The position numbers and the translations under genes are program-made. The notes below the pieces were generated by a model that searched no databases, had not been told where the DNA came from, and saw nothing but the letters and a program-made list of their open reading frames with translations. DNA of 64,000 nt from Planctopirus ephydatiae (GTDB taxonomy: Bacteria; Planctomycetota; Planctomycetia; Planctomycetales; Planctomycetaceae), in assembly GCF_007752345.1 (NCBI RefSeq), contig NZ_CP036299.1, positions 2,185,001 through 2,249,000 of the forward strand. Direction: 5' to 3'. Positions 10,852 to 18,138 of the stretch are shown one piece after another (position 1 is the first letter of the stretch; each line of letters starts with the position of its first letter).

Positions 10852-12717
10852 ATGGGCTTGACGGCGAAGAGTACCTGGTTTGGTAAAGGAGTCGCAGTTC
10901 CGTCGGCTTCACTGGCCGCTCCCCAGGCGAAGACGCGCGTCCGCTCCGGCAATGATACGCGGGAAGTCATTGAATCGATTGCCTTTGCGTTCATTCTGGC
11001 CTTTATTCTGCGCACGTTTCTGGCCGAGGCGTTTGTCATCCCCACGGGATCCATGGCGCCCACGCTCTATGGCCGCTGCAAAGAGGTGACCTGCAGCCAG
11101 TGCAGCCATCAGTTCGCGATCGGTGCCAGCGATGAACTCAATCGCTCGAATGGCACTCTCGAAATGCGGATCGAAACGGCCACCTGCCCCAATTGCCGCT
11201 TTGAGAACGATGTCAAAGATCGTCCCGTTTTCAGCGGCGACCGAATTCTGGTCAACAAATGGACCTACGAGCTCGCTAAACCCAGCCGGTGGGATGTGGT
11301 CGTCTTTAAGTTCCCCGAAGAGCCCGAGACCAACTACATCAAACGTCTGGTCGGTCTTCCCGGCGAAATGCTCCGCATCTGGCGCGGCGATATCTACGTG
11401 CGTCCCGGCTTGGATGGCGAATACAAGATCGCTCGCAAGGACGACCCCAACAAGCAGCGCGTCATTCAGCAATCAGTTTACGACGACACCGAAGCACCAC
11501 GGGTTCTCATCGATGCTGGCTGGCCCGAACGCTGGCAGGGTGTGGAAATTCCCGCCAACGATGTTTCCCCAGCCGACTGGAAGGAAGATCCTGCCGGGTG
11601 GAAAGCCGATCGAAAAGCCAGATCCTTCTCGATCACCGGGAACGAGTCTCAAGCCGGAAAATGGCTCAGGTACCGGCATTATCTTCCCACGCCCGAAGCC
11701 TGGAATCAGGCCCTGGATAATCAGCCGATGATTTTCCCCGCGAAACCTCAGTTGATCGCCGACTTCTGCTCCTACAACCATTACGCCCCCATGGGCAACG
11801 GCCAGCGTGGCGAACCTGATCCCTACTGGGTCGGCGACATCGCCGTCACTGGAAAATTCCGGCTGGGCCCAGACGCAGAAGGGGTCGAGAAGGCAAACGT
11901 AATTGTCGAACTCACACGTGGCGTGCGAGTGTACCAGTGTGTGATTGGAACCGATGGTTTCATCACACTGCGGATGTCCGATGAACTGGCCGGCGAAGAG
12001 GCCTTTCGCCAGATTGCCCGCAGCAAAGGGCCCGTGGTCGCGACAGGTTCGTGGTTCAATCTGGAGTTTGCCAACTTCGATCAGAGACTCTGCGTCTGGA
12101 TCAACGATCAACTGGTCGAATTTGATGCTGAAACCACCTATGCACCACCAGTTCTCTATGGTCCGCAATTGCGAGACCTTTCTCCCGTGGGGATTTTTGC
12201 TCAGGGCCGCGAGGTGGATGTCGAAGAACTCCGTATCTTCCGCGACATTTATTACCGGGCCGACCGCGATCTGAGTGACGGACGGGCCTTTCCCGATGCT
12301 GCCGTTTCACCTACTGAATATTCAAGCCCTGGTCGTCTGGCGGCACTATTGAGCGATCCGCTCGCATGGGGAGCCGAGTACGAAGCGCGTGCATTTGCCG
12401 CCGAATTTCCGGCTCTGGGAGCGGACGAATACTTCATGATGGGCGATAACTCACCGCGAAGTCAGGATGCCAGACAATGGTCGAACACTCGTGGTGCCGA
12501 CCGCCGGCATGCTGTCCCTGAATCAGCACTGGTGGGCAAGGCCTTCAGCATTTTCTGGCCGCATGGCGTCCCCTTCATGAATGATGGCAAAGGGTATGCA
12601 CCACTGCCATTCTTCTATCATAAGGTCAATAAAGCCCAAAACCCGGATGTCGAAAACTACCCCAGGTTCTCTATCCCCTTCTATCCCCAGTGGTGGCGCT
12701 GGACGCGCATTCGGTAA
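10852..12717 (+). CDS. lepB: Signal peptidase I with zinc-ribbon and large extra domain
   Basis: A 621-residue type I leader peptidase (S26). After a membrane helix (about 40-60) come the catalytic serine in PTGSMAPT (Ser67) and the general-base lysine in NYIKRLVGLPGE (Lys164). The C-terminal box GDNSPRSQDARQW (about 530-543) closes the active site. Between Ser67 and Lys164 lie two CxxC knuckles (C81/C84 and C112/C115), a likely zinc ribbon, and between the Lys region and the last box is an insert of about 330 residues with LamG/concanavalin-like strands (VDVEELRIFRDIYY near 460). Bacterial SPase I is usually 200-350 residues. It removes Sec signal peptides at the inner membrane. GAGG lies 5 nt before ATG 10852. 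Confidence 0.9.
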   Translation: MGLTAKSTWFGKGVAVPSASLAAPQAKTRVRSGNDTREVIESIAFAFILAFILRTFLAEAFVIPTGSMAPTLYGRCKEVTCSQCSHQFAIGASDELNRSNGTLEMRIETATCPNCRFENDVKDRPVFSGDRILVNKWTYELAKPSRWDVVVFKFPEEPETNYIKRLVGLPGEMLRIWRGDIYVRPGLDGEYKIARKDDPNKQRVIQQSVYDDTEAPRVLIDAGWPERWQGVEIPANDVSPADWKEDPAGWKADRKARSFSITGNESQAGKWLRYRHYLPTPEAWNQALDNQPMIFPAKPQLIADFCSYNHYAPMGNGQRGEPDPYWVGDIAVTGKFRLGPDAEGVEKANVIVELTRGVRVYQCVIGTDGFITLRMSDELAGEEAFRQIARSKGPVVATGSWFNLEFANFDQRLCVWINDQLVEFDAETTYAPPVLYGPQLRDLSPVGIFAQGREVDVEELRIFRDIYYRADRDLSDGRAFPDAAVSPTEYSSPGRLAALLSDPLAWGAEYEARAFAAEFPALGADEYFMMGDNSPRSQDARQWSNTRGADRRHAVPESALVGKAFSIFWPHGVPFMNDGKGYAPLPFFYHKVNKAQNPDVENYPRFSIPFYPQWWRWTRIR

Positions 12718-12816: not shown

Positions 12817-13605
12817 ATGCCCAAACTGCTGGAATGCACAGGTCTCGTCAAGCAATACCCGCGCAAGCTGGCTGTGGCGGATGTCAGCTTCCATGTGAAC
12901 CCTGGTGAAGTCGTCGGTCTGCTCGGGCCCAACGGGGCCGGGAAATCGACCAGCTTCCGCATGACGTGTGGGCTGGTCACACCCACTCGCGGCAAGGTCA
13001 TGTTCAATGGCATCGACGTCACTAACTGGCCACTTTATCGGCGGGCTCAGGCCGGGATGGGTTATCTCCCTCAGGACACGAGCATTTTCACCAAGTTGAC
13101 TGTCGATCAGAATTTGATTGCTGTTCTGGAATTCATGCCGCTCACGGCCAAAGAACGAAATTACCGCTGCGACGAACTCCTCAACGAGTTCGGCATTGCC
13201 GAAAAGCGGCATCAGATCGCCTCCACACTCTCTGGTGGTGAACGCCGCCGGCTGGAAATCGCCCGCTGTCTGGCCAGTCGCCCCAATCTCATTCTGCTCG
13301 ATGAACCTTTCACGGGGATCGATCCCGTCACCATCAACGGCATTCAGGATATCATTGCCGAACTTCGCAACTCCGGCATATCGATTCTTCTCACAGATCA
13401 CCGCGAACGGGAAACGTTGACGATTACCGATCGCAGCTACATTGTTTTCGGGGGGCGAATTCTCTGCAGTGGCGATGCGGAACAGGTCCTGAATGACCCG
13501 GACGCCCAGCGCTATTACTTCGGTAGTCGCTTTGACGCCAAATCGATTATCGAGAGCAAAGGGATCTTTCAGGCCGGGCAATTCGAAGAACGCCGCGCTG
13601 CATAA
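12817..13605 (+). CDS. lptB: LPS export ABC transporter ATP-binding protein LptB
   Basis: 262 residues. Walker A GPNGAGKST (about 37-45), Q-loop LPQDTSIFTKLT, ABC signature LSGGERRRLEIAR (about 137-149), Walker B LILLDEP and switch histidine LLTDHRERE. The LPQ/SIF...LT and FTGIDP patterns are those of LptB rather than general importers. It powers extraction of lipopolysaccharide from the inner membrane with LptFG; those genes are not in the window. A near-perfect ribosome site AAGGAGG precedes ATG 12817. The rodA-like gene starts 11 bp after its stop, so the two are an operon. Confidence 0.88.
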   Translation: MPKLLECTGLVKQYPRKLAVADVSFHVNPGEVVGLLGPNGAGKSTSFRMTCGLVTPTRGKVMFNGIDVTNWPLYRRAQAGMGYLPQDTSIFTKLTVDQNLIAVLEFMPLTAKERNYRCDELLNEFGIAEKRHQIASTLSGGERRRLEIARCLASRPNLILLDEPFTGIDPVTINGIQDIIAELRNSGISILLTDHRERETLTITDRSYIVFGGRILCSGDAEQVLNDPDAQRYYFGSRFDAKSIIESKGIFQAGQFEERRAA

Positions 13606-13616
13606 CAAAGGTCGTC

Positions 13617-14816
13617 ATGGCTGGCATCACAATCGGTCGCAATGTTTCGCCGACCAGCAGAAGTTCGTTTTCGGTGACGGGCTTTTTCTCGCACCCGTCG
13701 CTCATCCTCCTCGCTTGTGCTCTGGGCCTTGTTGTCCTCGGTCTCTGTGGCATTGCCCGGGCTGATCAACTGCAGACCGTTACGCCCCGGTACGAGCGGC
13801 AGGTTGTCTGGCTCATTCCAGCAGCGATCGCGTTTGCTCTCGTCGTGGCCATTCCTTACTCCCGCTGGAAGCGATTCAGTGACTGGCTCTTTGTGGCCTC
13901 TCTGCCGCTGTTGGTGCTGGTACTCGCCATGCCGCCTCGCAATGGGGCAAGGAGCTGGATTCCTTTAGGTATTCTCGATTTCCAACCCTCGGAAATGGCC
14001 AAACTCACCTTCATCATGGCTTTGGCACATTACCTGATGTACCGCGATAATCATCGCACACTGCGCGGTTTAGTGATCCCCTTTGTCGTCATGCTGTTTC
14101 CCGTGGCACTCATCCTGCTGGAGCCAGATCTTGGCTCGGCAATGCTCTTCATCCCCGTCCTTTTCAGTATGTTGTTTGTTGCGGGAGCCCGGGCCAGGCA
14201 TCTGCTGACAGTCATGCTGCTGGCTGCCTGCCTGATGCCATTATTCTGGCAGAAGATGAATGCCGAGCAACGCTCACGGGTGACGGCCCTTTTCAATCAG
14301 ACCGATGGCGGGCCAGCACCACGGGGTGATGGATATCATCAGCATCAGGCCAAACAGGTCATCGCACTTGGCGGCGTCTGGGGAAGTGATTTCCAGGGAC
14401 AGGTGCTTGAAGAACCAGCCGCTTATCATCTGCCCGCTGCGCAGACCGATTTTGTGTTCTGCATGGTGGCAGAACGTTTTGGACTGGGAGGATCTCTGGC
14501 GACGGTTGCACTCTATGCCATCTTCCTGATGCAGGGCATGCAGATTTCGCAGCGATGTAAAGAGCCTTACGGGCGATTAGTCGCTGCAGGTGTCACTGTG
14601 CTTCTGACCACGCAGATGATCATCAACACCGGCATGGCTGTCGGATTACTGCCGATCACGGGGATCACGCTGCCGCTCATGAGCTACGGTGGTTCCAGTC
14701 TAGTGGCGACCAGTCTCGCTCTGGCGATGCTGGTCAACATCGACTTGAACGGACAATCAGAAATTCAATCCGAGTCATTCATGTTCAAGGATTTGAATGC
14801 TGCCTCCGGGAATTAA
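13617..14816 (+). CDS. rodA: FtsW/RodA/SpoVE family peptidoglycan polymerase
   Basis: 399 residues with about ten predicted membrane helices. SEDS family signatures are present: RSWIPLG, FQPSEMAKL, EPDLGSA and the C-terminal GITLPLMSYGGSS. These enzymes polymerise lipid II glycan strands with a partner class B PBP. RodA is favoured over FtsW because of its place beside an envelope export gene and absence of a division cluster, but the distinction is inference. Interesting context: FtsZ is lacking in planctomycetes, so SEDS proteins here deserve attention. AAGG lies 5 nt before ATG 13617; translational coupling to lptB is likely. Confidence 0.85.
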   Translation: MAGITIGRNVSPTSRSSFSVTGFFSHPSLILLACALGLVVLGLCGIARADQLQTVTPRYERQVVWLIPAAIAFALVVAIPYSRWKRFSDWLFVASLPLLVLVLAMPPRNGARSWIPLGILDFQPSEMAKLTFIMALAHYLMYRDNHRTLRGLVIPFVVMLFPVALILLEPDLGSAMLFIPVLFSMLFVAGARARHLLTVMLLAACLMPLFWQKMNAEQRSRVTALFNQTDGGPAPRGDGYHQHQAKQVIALGGVWGSDFQGQVLEEPAAYHLPAAQTDFVFCMVAERFGLGGSLATVALYAIFLMQGMQISQRCKEPYGRLVAAGVTVLLTTQMIINTGMAVGLLPITGITLPLMSYGGSSLVATSLALAMLVNIDLNGQSEIQSESFMFKDLNAASGN

Positions 14817-14999: not shown

Positions 15000-16130
15000 A
15001 TGATTGCAACTTTGGAAAGATCCAGAAGCAAAAGCAAGAAGTCTCCCTCGGGATCAAAGTCATCTCGATCGAAATCGGCAACTATAGCGACAAAAGTTTC
15101 TGCCAGAATTTCCGGTAAATCTCAAAATTTGACAGAGGAACTTTGCCTTTCGACCCTCGTGTCTGAAAAGCGTATCTGCAAGTCTTTGAATTCACCCTCA
15201 GTCACGGCTGTTAAGAATAAAACAGCCGTCCGAGCTCCACGCCCAGTTGCTCCCCAGCGGTTGATTCCTCCACCCTTGGCCTATGTGGATCATCCACTCT
15301 TCGCACGCAAAAAAGCCGAAGCACAACTGGAACAGTTGAAGCCACTCACGATTGATTCGCTGAGTGCTTCACCTGTCTCTCAAGCGACCACGGCCGGAGC
15401 ACTTTTGCCCGCCTTCGCCCGGTCTCGTCTACTGGCTCCGGATGAAGAAAATTATCTCTTCTTGTGGATGAACTTCTGCCGTTACCAGGCCGAGGCCGCT
15501 CGTAAGAAGCTCGCCAAAACTCCTTCGAGTGATGCTTATTTTGCTCAGTACAATCTCTGGTTGAATAAATCGATCACTGCTCGCAATCAGATTGTTCAGG
15601 CCAACCTGCGGCTTGTCGTGGCTCTGGCTCGTAAATGCTGTGGATCGATTGAACAGCTTGCCGAACTCGTGTCCGAAGGGGTCATGCCTCTGATCCGTTC
15701 GGTTGAGCTGTTCGATATCAGCTTGGGAAATCGCTTCAGCACTTACGCCACCTGGGCTGTTCGCAATCAGATGCATCGCCACTTCAAAAAGGTGCAGACC
15801 TGGAACGAACACACTACGGCTTACATCCATGAAGCCCTCGAGCAGTTCGAAGATTTCCGCAGCCCGGTAGAAACACAGCCTGGAGAATCTCAAGAGGCCT
15901 GCCAGCGCGAGCTGACATCACTTCTGGAAACATTGTCGGAACGCGAGAGAGCCGTCATTGCCGCCCGGTTTGGTCTCGATGGCCAGCCTCGCGGCCAGTC
16001 ACTCTCCGAAATCTCCGGGCGCATCGGTTTGAGCAAAGAGCGCGTTCGACAGATCGTCCTCAAGGCTCTCGATAAGTTGAAACTTTACGCCGAGCAGAAG
16101 CCAGTGCTCGTGGAACTGTTCCAGGCCTGA
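15000..16130 (+). CDS. Sigma-70 family factor with basic N-terminal extension and little or no region 3
   Basis: 376 residues. The first ~60 are rich in Ser, Lys and Arg (RSRSKSKKSPSGSKSSRSKS). Region 1.2-like sequence begins near 142 (APDEENYLFLWMN), region 2 is clear at about 195-265 (NQIVQANLRLVVALARK, then FSTYATWAVRNQMHRHFKK), and region 4 is clear at the end (LSERERAVIAARFGLDG, then IGLSKERVRQIVLKALDKLK). Only about 50 residues separate regions 2 and 4, too few for a normal region 3. Primary factors normally retain region 3, so this is an alternative factor of a planctomycete lineage. AAAGG precedes ATG 15000. Regulon unknown; no anti-sigma gene is adjacent. Confidence 0.85.
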   Translation: MIATLERSRSKSKKSPSGSKSSRSKSATIATKVSARISGKSQNLTEELCLSTLVSEKRICKSLNSPSVTAVKNKTAVRAPRPVAPQRLIPPPLAYVDHPLFARKKAEAQLEQLKPLTIDSLSASPVSQATTAGALLPAFARSRLLAPDEENYLFLWMNFCRYQAEAARKKLAKTPSSDAYFAQYNLWLNKSITARNQIVQANLRLVVALARKCCGSIEQLAELVSEGVMPLIRSVELFDISLGNRFSTYATWAVRNQMHRHFKKVQTWNEHTTAYIHEALEQFEDFRSPVETQPGESQEACQRELTSLLETLSERERAVIAARFGLDGQPRGQSLSEISGRIGLSKERVRQIVLKALDKLKLYAEQKPVLVELFQA

Positions 16131-17139: not shown

Positions 17140-17355
17140 AGTTCTCTCGCATCCTAGGCCCGGCTCTCTCTCCAAAATGAAAGCGCCTCTCAAGAACCCT
17201 CGTCATCGGGGGAGACGGCAGGGTGAGGGGCTTTTCTCCGTACACAGGTCATCCGTCGCGTCAGATCTTCAGAGTCAGGCCTAACGATTCAGAATCATTC
17301 TTTGTATGATTCGGGCTTTTGATCCTGCTTGGAACATTCTGGCCAATCCACGGGT

Positions 17356-18138
17356 ATGACCATGCGCTCATCGACCGCTTTTATCCAGCACTTGCCGACC
17401 GACAACCTGCGAACCCGATTGGCTCTGCTGCTCTTCACATTGGTCATTTGCCCATTGGTCATTTGCGGCTGTGCTCAAAACTCAGCCCCAGTAAAACCTG
17501 GAAGCACTCAGCCTGCAGAAACTCTCCCCGCAGCTGCTCCGTCCGCACAATTGCCCGCACCCGTCATCGAACTGGAACCCGACGAGCAGCGGCTCGCCCT
17601 CGCCGATTTTCTTACTTTCCCCGAGACCAGTGGTGACAACGCGGCGAGTGGTTGGTCCGAAGAAGGTTCCATCATTCGAGGCACAGGCACTCCCAAAGGT
17701 TACCTCTACACGCAAAAGACCTTTGAAAATTTCCGCCTGCGCTACGACCTGCGATTTCCTGCCGCTTTGTTGTCATCCGCCTCACCACTCAAAGAAAACA
17801 CAGGCGTTCTCGTCTATATCACGGGCGATCAGAAGGTCTGGCCCCTTTCGATGGAAGTCCAGGGAAAGTACGTCGATCTGGGCTCCGTCAAGGAGAATGG
17901 CGGTGCTGCCAAAGCCACCCAAACCTTCGATAAAGAACTGCAGCAGAAGGTGATTCGACCAGAATTTGAGTGGAATTCGCTGGAGGTCATTTCTCAAGGC
18001 GGCGCTCTCACAGTGCTGCTCAATGGCGAAAAGATCACCACTTCCGAGCCCAATTTTCTCAGCAGTGGGCCCATTGGCTTGCAGGCGGAAGGTTTTCCTG
18101 TCGAGTTCGCCAACCTCCGCATTCTCGTGTTGCCATAA
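17356..18138 (+). CDS. DUF1080-like lipoprotein (concanavalin-like fold)
   Basis: 260 residues. A hydrophobic segment followed by the lipobox VICGC (Cys near residue 40) predicts a lipoprotein. After a Pro/Ala-rich linker the domain shows the DUF1080 (3-keto-disaccharide hydrolase) pattern: GWSEEGSIIRGTG, LYTQKTFENFRLRYDLRFP, NTGVLVYITG, WNSLEVISQGG, LTVLLNG and GPIGLQAEG. Members of this fold bind or cleave glycans in the envelope. ATG 17356 or 17362 are both possible. No operon partner; the GNAT gene is convergent, 40 bp away. Confidence 0.75.
   Translation: MTMRSSTAFIQHLPTDNLRTRLALLLFTLVICPLVICGCAQNSAPVKPGSTQPAETLPAAAPSAQLPAPVIELEPDEQRLALADFLTFPETSGDNAASGWSEEGSIIRGTGTPKGYLYTQKTFENFRLRYDLRFPAALLSSASPLKENTGVLVYITGDQKVWPLSMEVQGKYVDLGSVKENGGAAKATQTFDKELQQKVIRPEFEWNSLEVISQGGALTVLLNGEKITTSEPNFLSSGPIGLQAEGFPVEFANLRILVLP

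Follow-up and report, generated by a model that had tools for sequence, protein, structure and literature searches.

An enlarged type I signal peptidase of Planctomycetia with a zinc-ribbon-like loop and a predicted jelly roll insert

The gene lepB-A, located at 10852-12717 on the forward strand of the window (the whole 64,000-nt stretch of DNA analysed here), encodes a type I signal peptidase of 621 aa with two inserted modules, as indicated by its ORF, its profile matches and a structural model. The first module is a zinc-ribbon-like loop located between the two catalytic residues, and the second is a predicted concanavalin-A-like jelly roll that precedes the last conserved box. The sequence-only reading had singled out this enzyme for its size; the size is real, but it is not odd in the class Planctomycetia, where the enlarged enzyme is the usual form. 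LepB-A is probably the housekeeping signal peptidase of this lineage, rebuilt, and not a local oddity.

Signal peptidase I is essential in bacteria and a drug target, and it is commonly pictured as a compact core to which only a small cap is added. A lectin-fold domain inside that core, commonly with two copies of the enzyme, is a surprising architecture for an essential enzyme. The chlamydial LepB, from the same superphylum, is also an unusually long signal peptidase I of ~630 aa. We found no description of the enlarged architecture in the literature covered, which did not include supplements, subscription journals and preprints. The main text of PMC10632474 contains neither 'signal peptidase' nor 'lepB' (0 occurrences of each), and the accessible parts of PMC8767425, PMC5837995 and PMC11131199 do not describe the architecture either. 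In the portions available, PMC12758564 uses E. coli lepB as a control and PMC12419801 concerns a type II peptidase.

Gene and peptidase core

The lepB-A ORF starts with ATG, and its stop codon is counted within 10852-12717; the features described below also lie on the forward strand. The reverse strand of this stretch contains ORFs of up to 231 aa, which we take as shadow frames of lepB-A. A fusion, a frameshift and an assembly artefact were each considered and ruled out by full-length relatives, because LepB-A finds a match in all 30 of the class genomes searched (its own included) as well as at 80 named loci. The names of these loci, which include Gimesia, Rhodopirellula and Isosphaeraceae, point to Planctomycetia as the class. 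The absence from close relatives that the sequence-only reading had named as a possible objection was thus not observed. Three genomes of the same genus encode full-length LepB-A with 98, 97 and 80% identity.

LepB-A matches the Pfam family Peptidase_S26 (PF10502; E 3e-31, 109 bits against a cut-off of 22.9) and TIGR02227 (E 7.9e-28, 97 bits against a cut-off of 47), in each case in three stretches. By homology, the catalytic serine is Ser67 (11050-11052) in the motif IPTGSMAPT, and the catalytic general base is Lys164 (11341-11343) in the motif YIKRLVGLPGE. The last conserved box, GDNSPRSQDAR (residues 531-541, 12442-12474), was located from the sequence and the alignment, and ~335 residues separate it from the Lys-box region, which extends to residue ~196. 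Each of the 79 aligned sequences keeps Ser67 and Lys164, together with G531, D532, N533, S534, S537, D539 and R541 of the last box. This alignment comprises the window protein and 78 proteins from the 80 named loci (L055 and L103 were dropped), picked by score. In a wider set of 181 rows, in which A, B and outside-class proteins are mixed and the window protein is counted twice through L006, Ser67 is present in 180 rows, with a gap in the remaining one, and Lys164 in all 181.

An AlphaFold2 model of LepB-A built from the 79-sequence alignment has a pLDDT of 88.1 and a pTM of 0.87. When residues 57-621 of this model were compared with E. coli LepB (1t7d_B) by VIA-align, the Z score was 12.2 with an rmsd of 3.5 over 184 aligned residues of 34% identity. 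The core fold and the boxes are common to LepB-A and the E. coli enzyme (PDB 1t7d, 3iiq, 9nlo). By its profile matches, its residues and its predicted fold, LepB-A belongs to the type I signal peptidases (MEROPS S26A), and the sequence-only assignment to signal peptidase I, with Ser67, Lys164 and the GDNSPRS box intact, agrees with both the S26 profiles and the modelled core. From the family and the conserved residues, we infer that LepB-A is an active peptidase.

The model also contains a helix at residues 34-57 (10951-11022) with a hydrophobic sequence, which may serve as the sole membrane anchor. E. coli LepB has two membrane helices and a small cap, known as domain II.

As to the substrates, a crude filter over the window proteins found the strict A-x-A motif within the tested span in 2 of 21 picked N-termini and a relaxed motif in 10 of 21, and these picks are not clean signal peptides. 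PMC2881027 describes one signal peptidase I in Kuenenia, an anammox planctomycete, with the AxA motif visible in its predicted signal peptides. This suggests that signal peptidases of the phylum cleave with ordinary specificity.

Zinc-ribbon-like loop and jelly roll insert

The first module was delineated from the model and the alignment at residues ~75-121 (11074-11214). Its two CxxC pairs, at residues 81-84 and 112-115, lie between Ser67 and Lys164 as first read from the sequence, and in the model both are flanked by strand pairs in a block with a pLDDT of 90-97. Both the sequence and the strand layout of the model thus place two CxxC knuckles on hairpins, the arrangement of a zinc ribbon, and the zinc ribbon proposed earlier is consistent with this confidently predicted Cys quartet. 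The profile matches of the loop are weak and under the cut-off (IBR_1 E 8.4e-4, Zn_ribbon_4 E 0.15). The four cysteines are invariant in 79 of 79 sequences of the LepB-A alignment and in 28 sequences of the paralogue, LepB-B, and the modelled loop would probably bind zinc, the alternative being disulfides formed by these cysteines in the periplasm. However, the quartet is missing from two of 33 ORFs of relatives, both paralogues included (L027 and L033), and aligns in only 7 of 42 insert-bearing ORFs outside the class, so the zinc ribbon is dispensable. E. coli LepB, unlike LepB-A, has no zinc-ribbon loop.

In a genome family outside the class (f49), we also observed signal peptidases of ~500 aa with a jelly roll (L188:866-2380, L190:840-2342, L197:1626-3140 and L203:1733-3247) in which six CxxC pairs are placed close to the catalytic boxes or between them and perhaps form more than one zinc ribbon.

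The second module occupies residues ~201-468 (11452-12255), as delineated by VIA-align on the predicted model, and is followed by a linker (residues 469-522, 12256-12417) that is partly helical in the model and of lower confidence near residues 470-490. In the whole model this region matched 1oq1_B, 4azz_A (CBM66) and 4ygb_A (ERGIC-53), all with a Z score of 13.7. Modelled alone from 28 sequences, the insert reached a pLDDT of 86.3 and a pTM of 0.87, and its matches were 4ygb_A (Z 14.3, rmsd 3.4, 171 aligned residues, 11% identity), 4azz_A (Z 14.1, rmsd 3.0, 156 aligned residues) and 1oq1_A (Z 13.3), where rows within 1 Z count as tied. Overall, the comparison of the insert with lectins and CBM66 gave Z scores of 12-14 across 150-187 residues, with 5-12% identity to the matched chains. 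The models therefore predict a complete concanavalin-A-like jelly roll, that is, a beta-sandwich matched over the whole domain. An unstructured insert, which would have counted against the sequence-only reading, was not what we found, as the insert folded confidently both alone and in the full model.

This reading had described a ~330-residue insert with LamG-like strands. The concanavalin-like fold stands for residues ~201-468, with the linker behind it, but the LamG label does not extend to the sequence: LamG in Pfam gave no match at E up to 1 among 28 members scanned, a search in which the HMMER filters drop most weak matches, and 'LamG-like' is therefore true of the fold only. Among the same 28 members, no Pfam carbohydrate-binding family scored above its cut-off; the best were GLEYA, seen in 7 of 28 with E 0.0072, and PA14, seen in 2 of 28 with E 0.009. 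Searched against the sequences of solved structures, the insert profile returned a single match at E 0.44, which we took as chance. With either model, levan-binding proteins and the binding domains of clostridial neurotoxins were among the high-ranking Foldseek matches. We take the neurotoxin chains to contain the common jelly roll, and kinship of the insert to toxins was not read from this ranking, the top VIA-align matches being lectins and CBM66.

All 181 rows have D410 and D465 of the insert, 180 have Y468 and 177 have R464, and from the alignment all four resemble positions of the framework. W326, N408 and D442 are conserved in the A group and different in the B paralogue; consequently, no shared sugar site is evident. 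The length and the loops of the insert differ between members.

Paralogues, distribution and proposed role

The complete genome (5.21 Mb, one contig, completeness 100) contains PF10502 matches in two ORFs only, lepB-A and one at 1.474 Mb (listed match G000:C1:1473737-1475389). The latter encodes LepB-B (L002:1138-2913), a protein of 591 aa whose parts follow the order seen in LepB-A: helix, Ser box, Cys quartet, Lys box, insert and last box. A second, normal lepB had been proposed as a check; a second copy does exist, but it is not normal, as it shows the same enlargement and its insert is homologous to that of LepB-A. The matched N-terminal parts of the two proteins share 40% identity, and an hhalign comparison of their inserts gave a probability of 99.9 (E 1.3e-36). 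Since the inserts of both paralogues are homologous, the insert is older than the duplication that produced A and B. In a rough tree built from 138 columns of the core in 164 sequences, a single clade unites the B copies (support 0.966), the class sequences group together with two outside sequences included (0.916), and compact enzymes separate from insert-bearing ones (0.766) with one insert-bearing exception, L192.

For compact enzymes, we counted ORFs of less than 400 aa with a single-piece S26 match over at least 120 of 168 positions. None was found in the genome of LepB-A itself. Of 45 class genomes that are at least 95% complete, six have a compact enzyme among the matches listed (G231, G253, G299, G351, G357 and G388) and 39 have none among theirs, where the listed matches end near E 3e-6 and weak ones were possibly missed. 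Outside this draw, G004 encodes a compact enzyme of 299 aa, and among the 12 genomes behind named loci five have one (G432, G433, G437, G438 and G439, the last being weak at E 1.4e-4). Compact enzymes are absent from the genome of LepB-A and from most class genomes examined, yet not from all. Because no compact enzyme was found in the former and none is listed for the 39, general signal peptide processing must fall to the enlarged forms in these genomes. In the 6 of 45 and 5 of 12 genomes where a compact enzyme coexists, the large forms need not be the sole general enzyme.

Across the phylum, the insert profile has a match in 205 of 392 genomes: every one of the 40 class genomes and 165 of the 352 from elsewhere. 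We examined 40 of the outside matches; they do not form an exact top 40, with G262 represented by a second place of lower score. At 39 of these 40 places an N-terminal S26 core and the insert lie within one ORF, with 42 such ORFs in total, while L193 contains the insert and the C-terminal core only. Among the other of the 165 matches, some may be unrelated jelly rolls. From the 39 of 40 places, compared with the Cys quartet count above, the jelly roll is widespread among signal peptidases I in the phylum, with a patchier occurrence of the zinc ribbon. Outside the class, compact enzymes are common. Of the 30 genomes of family f49, 28 have an S26 match; most of the strong matches are ORFs of 502-538 aa (~505), and a few others are short or weak.

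Two further records deserve mention. L091:5827-7593, from a record titled Candidatus Kuenenia stuttgartiensis, is an A-type protein 36% identical to LepB-A, and the organism label may be wrong. L218:327-974, on the viral-collection contig IMGVR_UViG_3300027676_000013, is a distant, weak and apparently compact signal peptidase relative.

We consider it somewhat probable that LepB-A is a housekeeping signal peptidase I with a zinc ribbon for stiffening and a jelly roll for docking or capping, and that its paralogues share or divide substrates. LepB-A would act on Sec and Tat signal peptides as other enzymes of its family do, cutting them on the outer side of the inner membrane, and the zinc ribbon would stiffen the long loop beside the Ser strand. 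The jelly roll, as a periplasmic docking or cap module, would bind a partner, such as a pre-protein, the translocon or an envelope component, and would position substrates with no chemistry of its own. LepB-A and LepB-B may share the substrates or divide them. The docking role is suggested by the fold and the position of the modelled insert only. If the domain does bind substrates, the translocon or the envelope, it would add a layer of protein-export control for which model bacteria offer no known example. The function of the insert can be tested directly in cultured planctomycetes. For the role put forward by the sequence-only reading, in which the insert could select substrates or sense the envelope, the results speak neither for nor against.

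Another possibility, which we regard as somewhat unlikely, is a mainly structural role: the jelly roll would be a cap, a domain II that has been passively enlarged, stabilising the fold with no specific partner. The insert follows the Lys box and precedes the last box, at what we take to be the place of domain II in E. coli LepB, and this position is consistent with such a cap, as are the framework-like character of the most conserved residues and the variation in length and loops from member to member. However, the insert is kept and folded in both paralogues and in many genomes of the phylum even though compact enzymes work without it, which speaks for more than a passive cap.

Alternatively, the jelly roll could be a true lectin whose binding to a sugar, either of the envelope or on cargo, brings in substrates or tethers the peptidase, a reading that appears unlikely. 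The nearest folds are indeed carbohydrate-binding ones, including the L-type lectin domains of ERGIC-53, VIP36 and Emp46p/47p, CBM66 and the galectins, and the insert shares its jelly-roll fold with CBM66 and the B. subtilis galectin-like protein 1oq1 at 10-11% identity. This fold, however, is very common and has many uses, the identities to the matched chains are as low as given above, and the top-ranked folds include non-lectins such as the alpha-amylase inhibitor 1dhk_B. D410, R464, D465 and Y468, which are kept across all groups, resemble framework, and W326, N408 and D442 change in LepB-B. Because the conserved positions look like framework and a shared sugar site is not evident, a protein-docking or cap module is favoured over a lectin. 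The stronger version, in which a working lectin within an essential signal peptidase couples signal-peptide removal to a sugar of the envelope or of glycosylated cargo as a bacterial analogue of ERGIC-53, is distinctly unlikely; the L-type lectins, in contrast to the insert, are separate eukaryotic cargo receptors that are not built into a peptidase.

It is very doubtful that LepB-A is not the housekeeping enzyme but an accessory peptidase specialised for some of the substrates: the divergence of the paralogues could give each its own substrates and compact forms stand beside enlarged ones in some class genomes, but an ordinary enzyme was not found in its own genome or listed for 39 of 45 class genomes, and in f49, where L188, L190, L197 and L203 have the insert, the strong S26 matches are mostly ORFs of ~505 aa.

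Gene neighbourhood

The B copy adjoins A upstream on the same strand in 21 of 30 genomes, as counted from the listing, and lies elsewhere or on another contig in seven, including all four of this genus; none was seen in the other two. At the named loci, B is directly upstream of A in 25 of the 58 that are testable, and an ORF with ABC motifs is directly downstream of A in 49 of 73 testable ones. In the window, the next gene downstream is lptB (12817-13605, forward strand), encoding the LPS export ABC ATPase (TIGR04406, 309 bits against a cut-off of 240). The third gene of the string (13617-14816, forward strand) belongs to the rodA/ftsW family (PF01098, E 4e-84); its product passes the cut-off of NF037961 (171 bits against 150) and stays under that of TIGR02210 (302.6 against 336.7).

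One locus of a relative, L034 (G026:C8:83070-86705), contains three consecutive signal peptidase matches, a tandem pair and a third downstream. Two other genes of the window were noted. At 15000-16130 it encodes a sigma-70 family factor, matched in regions 2 and 4, with a Ser/Lys-rich N-terminal extension of ~190 residues. At 17329-18138, close to lepB-A, it encodes a 3-keto-disaccharide hydrolase domain (PF06439, E 1e-19), which is presumably of the jelly-roll type.
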